Assembly (NCBI GenBank): GCA_024742285.1 | Contig: JANSYR010000021.1 | Coordinates: 1 to 64,000, forward strand | Origin: a bacterium | GTDB lineage: Bacteria; Myxococcota_A; UBA9160; UBA4427 | Reading direction: 5' to 3' | Length of the DNA stretch: 64,000 nucleotides | Shown here: positions 20,286 through 36,904 of the stretch, one piece after another | How positions within the stretch are numbered: position 1 is the first letter of the stretch | Layout: each line of letters opens with the position of its first letter | The notes under the pieces: model-generated | The model's input: only the letters and a program-made list of their open reading frames with translations | The model's database searches: none | What the model was told of the DNA's origin: nothing | Position numbers and translations under genes: made by a program

Positions 20286-21368
20286 CTATTGCAGTCCGCT
20301 CACGAGCGCGGTCAGGGTCAGATTCCAGCCGTCGACCAGAACGAAGAGCATCAGCTTGAACGGCAAGGCGATCATCACCGGCGGGAGCATGATCATGCCG
20401 AGGGAAATCAGCATCGAAGCGATCACGAGGTCCACCACGAGGAAGGGCAGATAGATCATGAAGCCGATCTCGAAGGCCGTGCGCAGCTCGCTGATCATGA
20501 AGGCCGGCATCAGCACCGAAATCGACACGTCCTCCGCCGCCTCGGGAATCGCCTCCCCCTTCATCTCGACGAAGAGGAGCAGATCATTCTCGCGTGTGTG
20601 CGCCAGCAGGTAGTCCTGCACCGGCGCGAGCCCGCGTTCGATCGCGACGTCGCCGCCGATCTCCTCCGCCATGTAGGGCTTGAGGGCATCCTCGTAGACC
20701 ACCTCGCCGACCGGCGTCATCACGTAGACCGTCGTCATCAGCGCCAGCCCGACCAGCACCTGATTGGGCGGCAATGTCGCCGTCCCGAGGGCCTGTCGAA
20801 GCAGGGCGAGCACGATCAGGATCCTCGTGAAGCACGTCGCCATCAGCAGGATCGAGGGCGCGATCGAGATCGCCGTCAGGACGAGGACGATCTTGAGCGT
20901 GTCAGAGAGCTTGTCCGGCGCCGTCGCGCCGTCGATCGAGACGGAGAACGTGGGCGATGCCTCCGCCACGTCCTGTGCCGCCGCTTCGGGCGCCGAGACC
21001 GCGAGCAGCGCGAACGCGAACAGGGGCAGCCAACCGCTCCACGCGCTCAGCACGCTCGTCAAACGCGGCTTGCGCCGCGCCCCGGGTGCCTCGTCGACCT
21101 CCGGGATCGTGGCTTCGCGCGCCGCCGCTTCATCGGGCAGCCGCGCCAGCCTCGCGATGCCCTGCTCGCTCGCGCCGAGCAGCAGTCGTCTTCCGTCTAC
21201 TTCCACGAGATGGAGGCGCTGCTTGGGACCGAGCGGGACGGACTCCACGACCTGGATCGACCTCGGCGCGCGTCCTCCGCCCGGAGCGAGCCCGAAGCGC
21301 ACGAGTGCCCCTCGCAGGAGCACGATGGCTCCCAGCACGACGCAGAGTGCGGCGACGGTCTCGAGCAT
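20286..21368 (-). CDS. fliP: FliO-FliP fusion, flagellar export gate
   Basis: 360-residue protein. Residues 1-80 look like FliO: one membrane helix (LCVVLGAIVLLRGALVRF) and the small SIQVVESVPLGPKQRLHLVEVDGR domain. After a 25-residue linker comes the FliP part. It keeps what looks like its own signal sequence (GWLPLFAFALLAVSAPEAAA, about 112-131), followed by LKIVLVLTAISIAPSILLM and the FliP signatures FTRILIVLALLRQALGT and MISELRTAFEIGFMIYLPF. No stop codon or internal start with a good ribosome site separates the halves. FliP is normally about 250 residues. The start at 21368 has GGAGGG upstream. FliO helps FliP assemble, so a fusion makes sense. Confidence 0.9.
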   Translation of the reverse strand: MLETVAALCVVLGAIVLLRGALVRFGLAPGGGRAPRSIQVVESVPLGPKQRLHLVEVDGRRLLLGASEQGIARLARLPDEAAAREATIPEVDEAPGARRKPRLTSVLSAWSGWLPLFAFALLAVSAPEAAAQDVAEASPTFSVSIDGATAPDKLSDTLKIVLVLTAISIAPSILLMATCFTRILIVLALLRQALGTATLPPNQVLVGLALMTTVYVMTPVGEVVYEDALKPYMAEEIGGDVAIERGLAPVQDYLLAHTRENDLLLFVEMKGEAIPEAAEDVSISVLMPAFMISELRTAFEIGFMIYLPFLVVDLVIASMLISLGMIMLPPVMIALPFKLMLFVLVDGWNLTLTALVSGLQ

Positions 21369-21405
21369 GGTTCCCTCCGAACCCGATCCAGCCAGACGAG
21401 CGGTT

Positions 21406-21759
21406 TCAGCTCGCCGCGGCGGCGGTGGTTGCGATGAGTTCGGTGATGCGGATCGCCACGCGGTCGTCTTCGCTCGAAATCTCACCGCGCGCGATCAGCC
21501 GGTCGTTCACATAGATGTCCGCGGGCTCGCCGCTTCCTCGGTCGAGCTCGACGATCGACCCCTTCGAGAGGGCAAGGACGTCTCGAACCGGTAGATGCGC
21601 GCTGCCCACCTCGACACTCAGACGAAGCGGGACCTCCATGATCAGACCGAGGTCCGGCGGAGCGCCGCCCGCGGTCGCCTCGACCTCTTCCGGCTTCTCG
21701 CTCTCACCCGCGACGACTTCCTCGTCGATCTCCGGGAGCTCTTCGCTCTCGTCGCTCAT
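21406..21759 (-). CDS. fliN: Flagellar motor switch protein FliN
   Basis: 117-residue C-ring protein. An acidic N-terminus (SDESEELPEIDEEVV) precedes the SpoA domain (IMEVPLRLSVEVGSAHLPVRDVL, DIYVNDRLIARGEI). It ends with an alanine run. It lies 6 bp after fliM and works with FliM and FliG in rotation switching and export. Confidence 0.95.
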   Translation of the reverse strand: MSDESEELPEIDEEVVAGESEKPEEVEATAGGAPPDLGLIMEVPLRLSVEVGSAHLPVRDVLALSKGSIVELDRGSGEPADIYVNDRLIARGEISSEDDRVAIRITELIATTAAAAS

Positions 21760-23332: not shown

Positions 23333-24724
23333 TCAGCGGCTCACCGAGGGAATGCTCGCGGGCCGGCGCGATCCGTCGGTCTCGATTCCGAAGTCCTTCA
23401 GACGTCGCCACAGGGTCGTCGTCGAGATCTGGAGGAGCGCCGCCGCGCGCTTGCGGTTCCAGTTCACCTGCTCGAGGGTATTGAGGATGTGAGAGCGCTC
23501 CATCACCTGGAGGCTGTGGATCGTCTCGCCTTCGCGGACGAGAGACTCCTCCTTGAGGCGAACCGGCAGATCCTCGACGAGGATCTCTTCCCCCTGGCAC
23601 AGCGCGACCCCACGCTCGATCGAGTTCTCGAGCTGGCGCACGTTGCCCGGCCACGCGTAGCCGGCGAGAAGCTCCATCGCGTCGGTCGAGATACGCTCGA
23701 CGGGCTTGCCCGCGCGCTCGGCGAAGCGGCGCAGGAAGTGGTTCGAGAGGGCGCGGACGTCTTCCGGCCGTTCCCTGAGCGGCGGCACGTGGATCGGAAT
23801 CACCGCAAGGCGGTAGTAGAGATCCTCGCGAAAACTCCCCTCCGCGACCTCGCGCTCGAGATTCTTGTTGGTCGCCGCGACGAGCCGGACGTCGACGTAG
23901 CGAGTCGTCTCGTCGCCGACGGGCCGCACTTCGCCGGTCTGCAGAAAGCGCAGGAGCTTGACCTGCATCGACAGGGGCATCTCCGCCGCCTCGTCGAGGA
24001 AGACCGTCCCTTCGTGGGCGAACTCGAAGAGACCCTTCTTGTTCGCGGTCGCACCGGTGAAGGCGCCGCGTCGATGCCCGAAGAGCTCGCTCTCGAGGAG
24101 CGTCTCGGGGAAGGCGGCGGAGTTGACCGCGCAGAAGACGCGGTCCGAGCGGCGGGAGAGCCGGTGGATCGCCCGGCCGATCAGCTCCTTGCCGACGCCG
24201 GTCTCGCCGGTGATCAGGACCGAGCTGTCCGTGTCGGCCACCTTCTCGACCAGGCGCAGGAGGTCCTCCATCGCGCGGGACGTCCCGACGATGCCGGTGA
24301 GCGCCGACAGATCCTCGTTCTCGGATTCGGCCGCAGAGATCTCCGCGCGAGGCGAAGACGCTTGCGCCTTGGCGAGGCCGTCCTCCACGATGGAGACGAG
24401 ATCGTCGCGGTCGATGGGCTTGCGCAGGTAGTTGAGGGCGCCACGCTGGATCGCCTCGACCGCGCTCTCGATGCTGCCCTGGCTGGTCGTCACGATCACG
24501 CCGCAACCGAAGCCGCCCGCCTTGATGCGGTCGACGAGCTCGAATCCACCGCCGCCCTCGAGCTGCAGGTCCGCGAGCACCAGCTGCGGCGCGTGGTTCG
24601 CGGCCACCCGCATGGCCTCCTCGAGCGTCTGGCAATTCGACACCTCGTGACCGTTCAGGTGGAGCGTCGCCGCCGCCTGCCGAACGAAATTCTCTTCCCC
24701 ATCCGCGATCAAGATCCTGGCCAC
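23333..24724 (-). CDS. Sigma-54-dependent response regulator (FlrC/FleR-like)
   Basis: NtrC-family activator of about 463 residues. The receiver domain (ARILIADGEEN; phospho-acceptor Asp in LVLADLQ; Lys in YLRKPID) is followed by the AAA+ domain with Walker A GETGVGKELIGRAIH, the sigma-54-contacting GAFTGA loop, FLDEAAEMP and the R-finger region. A Fis-type helix-turn-helix closes it (VNWNRKRAAALLQISTTTLWRRLKDFG). The GTG at 24724 fits the receiver start; in-frame ATGs at 24742 and 24751 are alternatives. It probably drives the two sigma-54 promoters seen in this island. No normal histidine kinase accompanies it, only the odd receiver protein upstream. Confidence 0.93.
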   Translation of the reverse strand: MARILIADGEENFVRQAAATLHLNGHEVSNCQTLEEAMRVAANHAPQLVLADLQLEGGGGFELVDRIKAGGFGCGVIVTTSQGSIESAVEAIQRGALNYLRKPIDRDDLVSIVEDGLAKAQASSPRAEISAAESENEDLSALTGIVGTSRAMEDLLRLVEKVADTDSSVLITGETGVGKELIGRAIHRLSRRSDRVFCAVNSAAFPETLLESELFGHRRGAFTGATANKKGLFEFAHEGTVFLDEAAEMPLSMQVKLLRFLQTGEVRPVGDETTRYVDVRLVAATNKNLEREVAEGSFREDLYYRLAVIPIHVPPLRERPEDVRALSNHFLRRFAERAGKPVERISTDAMELLAGYAWPGNVRQLENSIERGVALCQGEEILVEDLPVRLKEESLVREGETIHSLQVMERSHILNTLEQVNWNRKRAAALLQISTTTLWRRLKDFGIETDGSRRPASIPSVSR

Positions 24725-24783
24725 TTTCCGTATTTCCCCCATCCAAGGCATCGCCGGCCGGGGCCGGCGCGAATCGACCGGTG

Positions 24784-26007
24784 TCAGCCGGCCGGCGTAT
24801 CCGCGTGGAGCGGCGTCTCGAGCATCTCCCCCTCGAGATGCTCGACGACGCGCACGACACGCTCAGATTCCGAAGAGACGCGCTCCACCCACTCTGCAGG
24901 TAGACCCGCGCGCTCGGCTTCCCCCCGCAGCCGGTCGACCGCATGGGTCAACGCGCCGACCGGTGTCCGAAGCTCTTCCGAGACGCGTCGAGCGAGATCC
25001 CGCGCCGCGACCCCGCGCACTCGCGCGTCGCGGGTCCGTTGCACGGCGAACTGCAGCCCACCGGTCAGCTCTCTCAGGACTCCCAGGCACGTCCCCGCAT
25101 CCGAGGTCTTCGTCCAGACGAGACCCGTCCAGACGCGTCGATCGCCGACGCGCAGACCGAAGCCCAGGCAGGCCTCGGCGGTCCCCGGCGACGCGTCCGC
25201 CGAGGGCGCCGCGTCGAGCCGCGAGACCCGGACGTTGCGTCGGGCTCGGGCCAGGGAGTCGAGATCGGAGTCCGGGAGCGCATCCAGCTCGATGGCTTCC
25301 TCGAGGGCCCAGTCCCCGGCGAGGCGGATCGCGACGAGTCGGGTCTCGTCGATCCAGAGCCACCGCAGAGCGCCGAAAGCCCCGGCGAACTCCGAGCGGA
25401 GCAGCTCGAAGATCTCGCTCTCGGTCGAGCACGAATTCAGCCCCGCCAGGAGCCCTCGCAACAGCACTTCGTGCCGCGCGAGCCCCTCGACCGGCATGCG
25501 CGGGGGCACGTGGTGGGCAGGCTGACGCGGCGTCTCGCGGTGGCTCCAGCCGGCGTACTCGGTGTTCGTGCCGAAGAGTTCGCGGAGCGTTTGGCGAAGC
25601 CCATCGAAGCTCCAGGGCTTGGGCAGGAGGAAGATCAAGCCGGCGCGCTCGATGGCCGTCCGCTTCCACTCGAAGCCGGACTCCGCGCTGACCAGCGCGC
25701 GCGCGGTCTCGGGGTATCGACGCCGGACCTCCGCGAGGAACTCGAGCCCATCGACGGCTCCGAGCGCTTCGTCGGCAATCAGCAACGCGTAGTCGGTTCG
25801 CCCGAGGTGTCGGAACGCCTCGTCCGCGCTGGCGCACGCGTCCACCACGAAACCAGGCTGCGACGCCGCGCGGACGAGCGAGAAGCGGGAGCCGAGGACG
25901 GCGTCGACGACGAGGATCTTCACGGCATCCTCGGCCGCGCGATCGCGGTCCGAATCCCTGCGCGTTCGGTCCGCCCGGAACTTCTTGCCGACTTCGTCGT
26001 TCAACAC
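24784..26007 (-). CDS. Receiver-GAF-like protein with histidine-less kinase remnant
   Basis: About 407 residues. An N-terminal receiver domain (residues 29-145) has Asp79 (LLIADEA) and Lys130 (LLPKPW). A GAF-like middle (about 180-325) follows. The C-terminal 75 residues resemble a kinase dimerisation domain (LARRVSEELRTPVGALTH), but the phospho-acceptor His is Glu344 and no ATPase domain follows. It therefore cannot act as a standard histidine kinase. It lies 59 bp upstream of the NtrC-type regulator, where FlrB-like kinases usually sit. It may be a scaffold or phosphate sink for that pathway, which is inference. The GTG at 26007 has a strong AAGGGAGG site; a later GTG at 25923 is possible. 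Confidence 0.75.
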   Translation of the reverse strand: MLNDEVGKKFRADRTRRDSDRDRAAEDAVKILVVDAVLGSRFSLVRAASQPGFVVDACASADEAFRHLGRTDYALLIADEALGAVDGLEFLAEVRRRYPETARALVSAESGFEWKRTAIERAGLIFLLPKPWSFDGLRQTLRELFGTNTEYAGWSHRETPRQPAHHVPPRMPVEGLARHEVLLRGLLAGLNSCSTESEIFELLRSEFAGAFGALRWLWIDETRLVAIRLAGDWALEEAIELDALPDSDLDSLARARRNVRVSRLDAAPSADASPGTAEACLGFGLRVGDRRVWTGLVWTKTSDAGTCLGVLRELTGGLQFAVQRTRDARVRGVAARDLARRVSEELRTPVGALTHAVDRLRGEAERAGLPAEWVERVSSESERVVRVVEHLEGEMLETPLHADTPAG

Positions 26008-26264
26008 GGCGGCCTCCCTTCCGCAATGCAATCCGTGTTGCCACGAACATTTCAACGATCGGTCCTGGGGAGGTCGTCTTGAGCGTTATTCGTGCAATTT
26101 TGCAGCAGGAGTGAACGCGCATTCCAAGTCCGAAGTCGCAGGTCGAAAACCTGGGGAGAACTCCGGGTGCGCTCTCACGGAAAGGACCGGGAGGAGGCGC
26201 GGGAAGACACGAGCGGCGTTCCTGGCGAAGGGGGAGCCGCGCGAGACGCGGTCTCGAGCGGCGC
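26008..26264. other. Intergenic region between motB and receiver gene
   Basis: 257 bp, locally AT-richer around 26075-26110. It holds a TGGCAA...TTGCA near-match to a sigma-54 site whose element spacing is one base too long, so it is not called as a promoter. No gene or clear terminator was seen. Confidence 0.4.
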
Positions 26265-27092
26265 CTATCGGCCGCCGACGTCGGCGCGCGCTTCGGCGCG
26301 ACGGACGCGACGCTGGGCACGGGTCGCGCGATCCGCGACGGGATCGCGCTTGTAGACGAACTCGACTCGCCGGTTCACGGCGCGGTTCTCCGGAGAATCG
26401 TTCGGCACCAGCGGACGGGTCGACCCGTATCCCGAGGCCGCGACGCGACTGGCGTCGATGTCGCCGGCGTCGATCATGTAGCGAAGGACGGCGATCGATC
26501 GAGCCGCGGCCAGGTGCCAGTTGGTCGGAAAGCGCGGTGTCGCGATCGGGGAATCGTCGGTGTGTCCCTCGATCGAGAGTTCGTAGGGAAACTCCTCGGT
26601 GATCCGGATGACCTCGTCGAGAAAGACGAAGGAGACCGGAAGGAGCTTGTCCGAGCCGGGCTTGAAGAGCGCCCCGCCCTTCACGCGAACGATCACGCCC
26701 CGCTCCGACGATTCGGCCTCGACGATCCGCGACAGATTGCTCTCCGCGATTGCCTGCTGCACCTCCTGCATGATCTTCTGATCCATCGTCGGAGCCTGCT
26801 CCGACGAGTCGACCTGGACGACGTCCAGGAAGGGCGTCGACTTGTCTTCCGACCACTCGATGAGGGAGGTGCTCTTGAGCTCGAATTGACCGGGGTTGTC
26901 CTCGATCACGCCGAGCGCGTTCTGGATCGAGCCCATGGCCTGCAGGAAGAGCTGCTTGTCCGTGTTCGCGAAGGAGAGCATGAGCACGAAGAAGACGAGG
27001 AGCAGACTCATGAGGTCGCCCATCGTGGCGAGCCAGGCAGGCGCGCCCTCTTCGCATACGTGGTCTTCGGCTTCGCTCGGATCGAGTCCCAC
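26265..27092 (-). CDS. motB: Flagellar stator protein, PomB/MotB type (stator set 2)
   Basis: 275-residue stator subunit. The N-terminal helix GAPAWLATMGDLMSLLLVFF with LMLSFANTD closely follows PomB of Na+-driven motors (WL-x-T-x-x-DLMSLL-x-x-FFVL-x-LSF), including the ion-binding Asp. A long linker leads to the OmpA-like domain (LSIEGHTDDSPI, NWHLAAARSIAVLRYM, NRAVNRRVEFVYK). The basic tail (RATRAQRRVRRAEAR) is extra. The GTG start lies 40 bp after motA. This differs clearly from the MotB at 4.4 kb. Confidence 0.93.
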   Translation of the reverse strand: MGLDPSEAEDHVCEEGAPAWLATMGDLMSLLLVFFVLMLSFANTDKQLFLQAMGSIQNALGVIEDNPGQFELKSTSLIEWSEDKSTPFLDVVQVDSSEQAPTMDQKIMQEVQQAIAESNLSRIVEAESSERGVIVRVKGGALFKPGSDKLLPVSFVFLDEVIRITEEFPYELSIEGHTDDSPIATPRFPTNWHLAAARSIAVLRYMIDAGDIDASRVAASGYGSTRPLVPNDSPENRAVNRRVEFVYKRDPVADRATRAQRRVRRAEARADVGGR

Positions 27093-27132: not shown

Positions 27133-27897
27133 CTAGTCCCCTGCCCCGAGCCCCTCTCGCTCTTCGGGCGAGAGGAAGGACTCGAGCTTCGACTGGATGA
27201 CCATCGAGTTGTCGCCCTTGAGGATCGACTCGACGCCAGCGATCGCGAGCTTCTTGGCCGCGACCTCTTCGGCCGTCCGATTCTCGAGCTTCGAGCCGAT
27301 CGGCCCGTACACGACGAAGGCGAGGATCGCGCCGTAGAGGGTCGTGAGGAGCGCGACCGCCATCGCCGGGCCGATCGAGTCGGGATCGTCGAGGTTCTGG
27401 AGCATCTGCACCAGACCGATGATCGTACCGATCAGCCCCATCGAAGGCGCCGTCGCGCTCATGAACTTGAAGATCTGCTGCGCCCGCTCGTGGCGTTCCT
27501 TCATCGCCGAGAGTTCGCCCTTCAGGGTTTCGGTGATGAGCTCGGGCGAGAGGCCGTCGACGCCGAGACGCACGCCGCGCGCCATGAAGGGATCCGCGAT
27601 TTCCTCGCCCTCGAGGGCGACGAGCCCTTCCTTGCGGGCCTTGCCGGCGAGGTCGATGATGAGGGGAACGAGGTCGGCCTTGGGGCTCGACTTGTCGAAG
27701 AATGCCTGGACCGCCGACTTCAGCCCGCTGATCACGTAGGGCATCTTCTGGTTCGTGAGCGTCGCGGCAAGCGTGCCGAAGACCACGATCAGTGCACTCT
27801 GGGCGTCGACGAAGGGCATGACGCCGCCGCCGAGCATCATGGCGGCGATGATCAGGCCGAATCCGAGCCCGAGTCCGAGAATGGTTCCGAGATCCAT
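27133..27897 (-). CDS. motA: Flagellar stator protein, PomA/MotA type (stator set 2)
   Basis: 254 residues, the same size as PomA. Four membrane segments are visible: ILGLGLGFGLIIAAMML, SALIVVFGTLAATL, PSMGLIGTIIGLVQML and VALLTTLYGAILAFVVYGPI. The cytoplasmic loop has ARKEGLVALEGE. It is the partner of the PomB-like gene just downstream. A TCCGATAA sequence at 27955-27962 resembles a sigma-28 -10 box but has no matching -35. Confidence 0.94.
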   Translation of the reverse strand: MDLGTILGLGLGFGLIIAAMMLGGGVMPFVDAQSALIVVFGTLAATLTNQKMPYVISGLKSAVQAFFDKSSPKADLVPLIIDLAGKARKEGLVALEGEEIADPFMARGVRLGVDGLSPELITETLKGELSAMKERHERAQQIFKFMSATAPSMGLIGTIIGLVQMLQNLDDPDSIGPAMAVALLTTLYGAILAFVVYGPIGSKLENRTAEEVAAKKLAIAGVESILKGDNSMVIQSKLESFLSPEEREGLGAGD

Positions 27898-29996: not shown

Positions 29997-30230
29997 ACCG
30001 GCCTCCTGGCTGCCCTCGGTCGAGGACCCCGGGAACGATAGCGGACGCAGAGCGATCCTCCGGCGGTCCCGGGACCTCGGAATCCGGGGTCAAGGGCCGT
30101 CACCGAAGGCCGATACGTCTCCCATGTGCGCGGCTGCGCGTGCAGACCGGCACGTCGTCGATTCGAGCCCCTCGTGGGCGGGCCCCGCGGCCATCGGCGA
30201 CCGGATCCGCCGGAGCCATGAGGAGCGTTG

Positions 30231-36550: not shown

Positions 36551-36904
36551 CGTTTCCCCTACTCCCCGCCCCGGAACTTCTGATCTTCGACGTGGAGGTT
36601 TCGAACCCTCTCCCTTCCTGGATCGGCAATTCACCGGCAACCTTGAGCGATGGCAGCCGAAGGCTCCTCGGACACGCGAATCTCCGGCGGGCCCCGGGCG
36701 TGTCCGACCGAAGAAGCCCCGGAGCGAGCCCGGGGAGAAGGCCAGGCCCGGCGCGGAGATCGCCCGGGGTAGAAGCGCCCCCGGTTCTGGGGTACCCATG
36801 GCGCCGCGAGGCGCCCTCGCCCGGCGGACCCGAGGCCGAGCGAACCCCGCCGACCCGTGCCAGGACTTCCCGGTGCGCCGAACGGACGACGAGGAGGAAC
36901 AGGC
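36551..36904. other. Structured intergenic region upstream of mgtE
   Basis: 354 bp between divergent genes. A perfect 10-bp inverted repeat TCGGACACGC (36668-36677) / GCGTGTCCGA (36698-36707) is followed by CCCCGG-AGCGAGC-CCGGGG (36717-36735) and GGCGCC-GCGA-GGCGCC (36800-36815). These could fold as three hairpins in the mgtE leader. No M-box or ykoK-type core was recognised by eye. Confidence 0.5.

Follow-up and report, generated by a model that had tools for sequence, protein, structure and literature searches.

The window analysed here is the whole 64,000-nucleotide stretch, and the gene of interest, P0001, occupies the position directly before a flagellar sigma54 activator, which we call the slot. 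The genes and features around it, in the order in which they are read on the reverse strand, are:

27133..27897, (-), motA
26265..27092, (-), motB, upstream of P0001
26093..26104, (-), palindrome TGCAAAATTGCA, just upstream of the P0001 promoter motif
26058..26083, (-), sigma28-type motif CTCAAG-N14-ACCGAT, upstream of P0001
24784..26007, (-), P0001, the slot protein gene (GTG start, 407 aa), made up of a receiver (residues 31-141), a middle part (residues 173-326) and a His-less DHp hairpin (residues 327-396) with E344 at the His position
23333..24751, (-), P0003, an NtrC/FlrC-type sigma54 activator with a receiver, an AAA+ domain with GAFTGA and a Fis-type HTH; the presumed target of P0001
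22692..23243, (-), fliL, the first gene past the activator, followed by fliM, fliN, fliO-fliP, fliQ, fliR, flhB and flhA

The activator gene starts 32 nt downstream of P0001, which is therefore correctly placed directly before an NtrC-type activator, as the earlier note on this DNA had it. The names fliM and fliN were assigned by order and size; Pfam gives FliMN_C for both. FliO and FliP are fused, with both matches falling in one 399-aa open frame (20286-21485, (-)).

The earlier note, made from the letters alone, had read P0001 as a receiver and a GAF-like domain, with E344 instead of the His in SEELRTP and with no ATPase domain, and all of this except the GAF-like domain is borne out. Pfam places a Response_reg domain at residues 31-141 (6.7e-11), the phospho-Asp and Lys of the receiver fold (Asp79 and Lys130) being kept in the window protein and in those of genomes G060, G061 and G059. 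The H box reads S343-E344-E345-L346-R347-T348-P349, and HATPase_c has no Pfam match in P0001 at E ≤ 1. HisKA is matched at residues 336-391 with an E-value of 2.7e-4 and 21.4 bits, which is under the Pfam cut-off of 26.9; HisKA matches of 3.2e-5 to 3.0e-4 occur in P0004, P0005 and P0010. For the middle part, Pfam finds no GAF domain, a profile has no PDB match at E ≤ 10, and the same profile does not align with the middle of P0002, a kinase homologue elsewhere in the window. GAF is hinted at only by a GAF_2 match below threshold (E 0.01) in the relative from G041. An AlphaFold2 prediction of P0001 from two sequences gave a mean pLDDT of 46.6 and a pTM of 0.33, and the helical hairpin region alone reached 60-78.

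Of 79 genomes of the order searched for the slot protein (E ≤ 1e-15), six have it, namely five of the window's genus (the window itself, G057, G059, G060 and G061) and G041 of its family. A wider search of genome contigs matched a single record, which carries the G060 orthologue. In the genus, the residue at the His position is Glu, Gln, Glu, Glu and Glu (window, G060, G061, G059 and G057), so that the loss of His holds in all five, whereas a strict conservation of E344, which the earlier note had put forward for checking, does not. The following residue, at an acidic position specific to the kinase reaction, is E, D, E, E and Q in the same order. T348, the phosphatase-specific Thr four residues past the His position, is invariant in the five hairpins together with P349. 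H355, which lies three helix turns below E344, is also invariant in them and is replaced by Asn in the kinase of G009 described below.

No part of P0001 is better conserved than the hairpin. Its identity to the window sequence is 83% in G060, 69% in G061, 80% in G059 and 80% in G057, compared with 72%, 42% and 47% for the receivers of G060, G061 and G059 and 37-65% for the middle part. Between the window and G061, dN is 0.228 in the hairpin, 0.564 in the receiver and 0.546 in the middle, at a dS of 1.0-1.5, and dN is far under dS in all pairs tested. Because identity is highest and dN lowest in the hairpin, the comparison indicates that this His-less segment is under purifying selection. We note that the slot gene of G059 is split over two frames and that of G057 is cut by a contig end. 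In a sixth member of the genus, G058, the slot gene is broken, with two receiver pieces remaining in different frames. The activator is intact in both G058 and G059 (loci L094 and L095), and the breaks in their slot genes may reflect either errors in MAG assembly or dispensability.

A general background of His-less kinases in the window genome (an assembly 95.3% complete and 4.15% contaminated) was considered and rejected: a home-made DHp profile found His in all 28 detectable H boxes of the other kinases. This survey drew on loci for 30 of the 49 HATPase_c matches in the genome, of which 28 gave an H box and two none, the other 19 being without a locus. The profile replaced an earlier, narrow regular expression, which had found the H box in 9 of the 30, all with His.

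Orthologues of the activator occur in 24 of the 79 genomes of the order (E ≤ 1e-110), and a search of 90 genomes of the class at E ≤ 1e-115 gave none outside the order, all 24 genomes with a match lying within it. The AAA+ cores of the 24 activators form one clade with support 100/99. In two of these genomes, G008 and G009, an intact FlrB-type kinase stands directly before the activator, although that of G009 is cut by the contig end. The gene order in G008 is motA-motB-kinase-activator, matching the window slot (motA and motB of G008 were named by their likeness to those of the window). MotB of G058, like the slot gene of that genome, looks frame-shifted. Six of the 24 genomes belong to the window's genus. 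In five others, of family f1, the slot holds a receiver with a weak GAF match (G041), a receiver with a further part (G034), or a receiver only (G035, G036 and G042); the last three show that the hairpin is not required throughout the family. No slot gene was seen in the remaining 11 with the ORF filter used.

A profile of the genus hairpins (n = 5) matches the kinases of G009 (1.3e-8) and G008 (6.7e-4), while the best match among kinases of the window genome itself is 0.08 (30 of 49 loci). The profile's preference for the G009 and G008 kinases over those of the window genome makes descent from a former slot kinase the best reading of the hairpin. The idea that P0001 sits in the kinase's place is thus upheld both by the gene order in G008 and by the kinship of the hairpin. 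P0001 shares with FlrB/FleS the slot before an FlrC-type activator, as seen in G008; however, FlrB/FleS consist of HisKA and HATPase_c, whereas P0001 is without the phospho-accepting His and the ATPase domain and has a receiver added in front.

The P0001 receiver has the NosR receiver as its best NCBIfam match (5.8e-13) and HupR1 (2jk1) as its best PDB match (9.9e-8). A tree was made of 68 receivers, comprising nine f1 slot proteins, 23 activators and 36 rows from the window genome; the activator of G076 is absent, its receiver being unmatched. In this tree, one clade with support 100/99 unites the nine slot receivers with those at the N-termini of six activators from families f9 and f10 (G029, G070, G065, G064, G073 and G066). 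A profile of the five slot receivers outside the genus gives 119-81 bits for five of the six f9/f10 activators and 73 for the sixth, G070, the best other match being 75. A profile of the genus's four receivers separates less well: the six score 58-46 bits, while the G009 activator reaches 52.5 and the best receiver of the window genome 50. The tree and profiles thus show that the type of receiver found by itself ahead of the activator in the window's family is fused to that same activator in f9 and f10. This fusion is the best evidence that P0001 acts on the activator. The arrangement in f9 and f10 resembles that of HupR, in which a related receiver is likewise fused to an AAA+ domain; the window genome differs in that this receiver belongs to a protein apart from the activator, which carries an NtrC-type receiver of its own. 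HupR is active in the unphosphorylated state.

The activator's own receiver keeps the acidic site, Asp, Thr and Lys in all six members of the genus. Elsewhere in the order, the activator receivers of G013, G010, G012, G011 and G076 (loci L104, L105, L108, L112 and L113, respectively) have lost both the Asp and the Lys column, in an alignment that is loose here and with an Asp retained nearby in G010. Because these receivers are degenerate around Asp and Lys, the activators of G010-G013 and G076 probably work unphosphorylated.

The earlier note had suggested that the flagellar sigma54 pathway may be driven differently in this bacterium, and had named an intact kinase close by as the observation that would speak against it. 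Such a kinase was sought and rejected for the 87.9-kb contig (C21) that carries the window, where the sole HATPase_c match is P0002, which itself is without His. The G009 kinase fragment has 42 matches in the window genome at E ≤ 1e-10, none of them on C21; the best is 38% identical and lies on contig C15, beside another activator. The suggestion gains from the f9/f10 fusions, from the decay of activator receivers elsewhere and from the sigma28-type motifs described below. It is weakened in that the activator receiver of the genus keeps its phosphorylation residues and that a distant orphan kinase is possible. Going by titles, literature searches combining pseudo-histidine kinase with flagellar, and on His-lacking kinases, flagellar kinases, and FliA with sigma54 activators, did not return a description of this arrangement.

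The stretch upstream of P0001 is nearly invariant in all five congeners and holds TGCAARATTGCA and CTCAAG-N14-(G/A)CCGAT. The sigma28 consensus has been given as TAAAGTTT-n11-GCCGATAA (PMC2859248), and the P0001 upstream motif fits it in both elements and spacing. Of 22 genomes compared, 20 have a sigma28-type motif scoring at least 11/12 in the 330 nt ahead of the slot gene or the activator, G009 and G057 having too little contig for this test. The two that fall short are the kinase-bearing G008 (7/12) and G029 (9/12). In controls, 11/12 was reached by 2 of 440 shuffled upstream regions and by 19 of 1750 windows of 330 nt from the window genome. No sigma54 promoter was found upstream of the slot gene, the two matches in the window falling elsewhere. 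The frequency of the motif ahead of the slot or activator gene suggests that the operon of the sigma54 activator is under sigma28 control. In Vibrio, flrB and flrC are reported to be early genes dependent on FlrA and RpoN, with the FliA-dependent genes coming last (PMC3930126). Two FliA/WhiG-type sigma factors of the window genome score over the curated cut-off (C13:162744-163421 and C6:245585-246259), one of which might serve pili or another regulon. The palindrome TGCAAAATTGCA is perfect and is kept in all five congeners and in none of 17 other genomes tested; it is perhaps an operator.

We tentatively propose, at a confidence somewhat short of even, that P0001 is a reduced FlrB-type kinase turned into a receiver-gated off-switch, which docks on the activator and probably dephosphorylates it. 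An FlrB-type ancestor would have shed its entire ATPase domain along with the His that accepts phosphate, retaining the dimerisation hairpin, and a NosR/HupR-type receiver would serve as the input. When phosphorylated, or when bound by some partner, this receiver would reposition the hairpin; the dimeric hairpin would then bind the activator's receiver and speed its loss of phosphate, with T348 as the predicted phosphatase residue. The on-signal would come from a distant kinase or acetyl phosphate, together with sigma28-dependent expression of the operon. We favour an off-switch that works by docking or phosphatase action because the parts specific to the kinase reaction are gone or drifting, while the phosphatase residue is invariant. 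The HisKA phosphatases CrdS, EnvZ and RcsC present their Thr in an H-x-x-x-T context, and P0001 keeps this Thr. RcsC of P. aeruginosa PA14 is reported to act mainly as a phosphatase, an activity that is removed by T506A (PMC3842833). However, these three proteins keep His and the ATPase domain, and P0001, for which phosphatase activity is predicted from sequence, has neither. The reported evidence on HisKA proteins is that His improves phosphatase activity and the ATPase domain helps (PMC3510030, PMC7005713), although phosphatase activity at pH 8 has been reported for a form of HK853 without the ATPase domain (PMC7005713). Thus the absence of both His and the ATPase domain from P0001, together with the small number of hairpins (n = 5), counts against a phosphatase. 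P0001 may moreover be dispensable, since G058 keeps the activator with a broken slot gene.

A close rival, which we regard as a realistic possibility, is that P0001 is a non-enzymatic allosteric partner, whose dimeric hairpin on the activator's receiver or AAA+ ring would block or permit assembly according to the state of its own receiver, with no phosphate chemistry on the activator. Precedent comes from DivL of Caulobacter, which is reported to bind DivK~P while being neither a kinase nor a phosphatase, and whose CA domain is dispensable (PMC4211667). Both DivL and P0001 replace His and keep the hairpin, the loss of His extending across the P0001 orthologues; P0001 differs in being without the CA domain and PAS, and in its partner and pathway. 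A second precedent is Caulobacter FlbD, reported to have no cognate kinase and to be governed by FliX (PMC3930126, PMC7064773), which is a flagellar sigma54 activator under a non-kinase partner, as proposed here; unlike P0001, FliX is not described as a kinase derivative in the accounts cited. The lack of His and CA in P0001 fits such a role, as do the f9/f10 fusions, which show that this type of receiver can act on an AAA+ domain directly. What this reading leaves unexplained is the invariant, phosphatase-only Thr of the five hairpins, although Thr-Pro may be structural. Ordinary two-component control, in which the activator would receive its phosphate from an orphan kinase elsewhere and P0001 would add an auxiliary input, is compatible with the proposed off-switch, which needs a source of phosphate. 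It would explain why the activator receiver keeps its phosphorylation residues, and the 49 HATPase_c and 42 G009-fragment matches offer candidates, but with just the His-less P0002 on the contig and the best G009-kinase match beside another activator, we consider it decidedly unlikely as a rival explanation.

P0001 might instead be a functionless, decaying remnant of FlrB, the activator working without it. The broken slot gene of G058 and the frame-split one of G059, both next to intact activators, would fit, as would the shorter slot proteins elsewhere in the family. Against this, the hairpin is the most conserved part of the protein, its dN remains far below dS, the upstream region is conserved too, and the two breaks may be assembly errors; decay is therefore unlikely in our view. 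The invariance of H355 in the five hairpins, where the G009 kinase has Asn, raises the thought of a moved phospho-acceptor, with P0001 acting like Spo0B in phosphotransfer between its own receiver and that of the activator. We take the corresponding position of EnvZ to be a partner-specificity site, a role that would be enough for the conservation of H355, and we know of no HisKA protein that uses the equivalent position as acceptor; we give this reading very little weight, the least of all.

The kinase homologue P0002 lies in a second group of features, on the forward strand:

30089..30114, (+), sigma28-type motif GTCAAG-N14-GCCGAT, upstream of pilT-P0002
30228..31376, (+), pilT, directly before P0002
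31384..32661, (+), P0002, a kinase homologue whose ATP-site boxes are intact and whose His position is taken by Arg209

P0002 has the N, G1, F and G2 boxes. In orthologous loci of the order, the residue at the His position is Arg in 54, Leu in two, Cys in three and His in none (n = 59, these being the loci that cover the site out of 60 fetched), and in the sister family f12 (n = 9) it is His in four, Tyr in four and Cys in one; the loci of the comparison are L063-L092 and L158-L196. The P0002 orthologue adjoins pilT in all of them but L182, L184, L185 and L196, which lie at contig ends. P0002 is thus a candidate for an order-wide, DivL-like pseudokinase, and is closer to DivL than P0001 is, with its His replaced and its ATP-site boxes kept. 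It may use a phospho-Arg acceptor, though Leu in two genomes counts against this. Because both P0001 and P0002 are without His, they cannot phosphorylate each other in the canonical way. Our literature search found no published description of a PilT-linked pseudokinase. Among 57 pilT upstream regions, the sigma28-type motif scores 11/12 in 44, 10 in 12 and 9 in one, and at least 10 was reached by 17 of 285 shuffled regions. As matching motifs precede pilT-P0002 and P0001-activator and are kept in most relatives, a single sigma factor may serve both pili and the flagellar activator.

Taken together, and as a broad picture that we hold to be doubtful, the sigma54 activator of this order may largely have left His-Asp control: its operon would be switched on by sigma28, which inverts the customary hierarchy, its kinase would in the window's genus be pared down to a hairpin that docks or dephosphorylates under the control of a receiver, the same receiver would replace the activator's own in two other families, and P0002 would be an order-wide pseudokinase tying pili to the sigma28 programme. 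A checkpoint in flagellar assembly that is usually read by FlrB, FleS or FlgS would then operate here with no cognate kinase to read it. Kinase-less control (FlbD-FliX), pseudokinases (DivL) and HisKA phosphatases are already known, and the first two precedents limit the surprise. The presence of kinase, docking-protein and domain-fusion states within one order makes the route from kinase to pseudokinase testable.

One further sigma28-type motif in the window, an exact match, lies at 36622-36647 (-), about 75 nt before an open frame that starts near 36552 (-).
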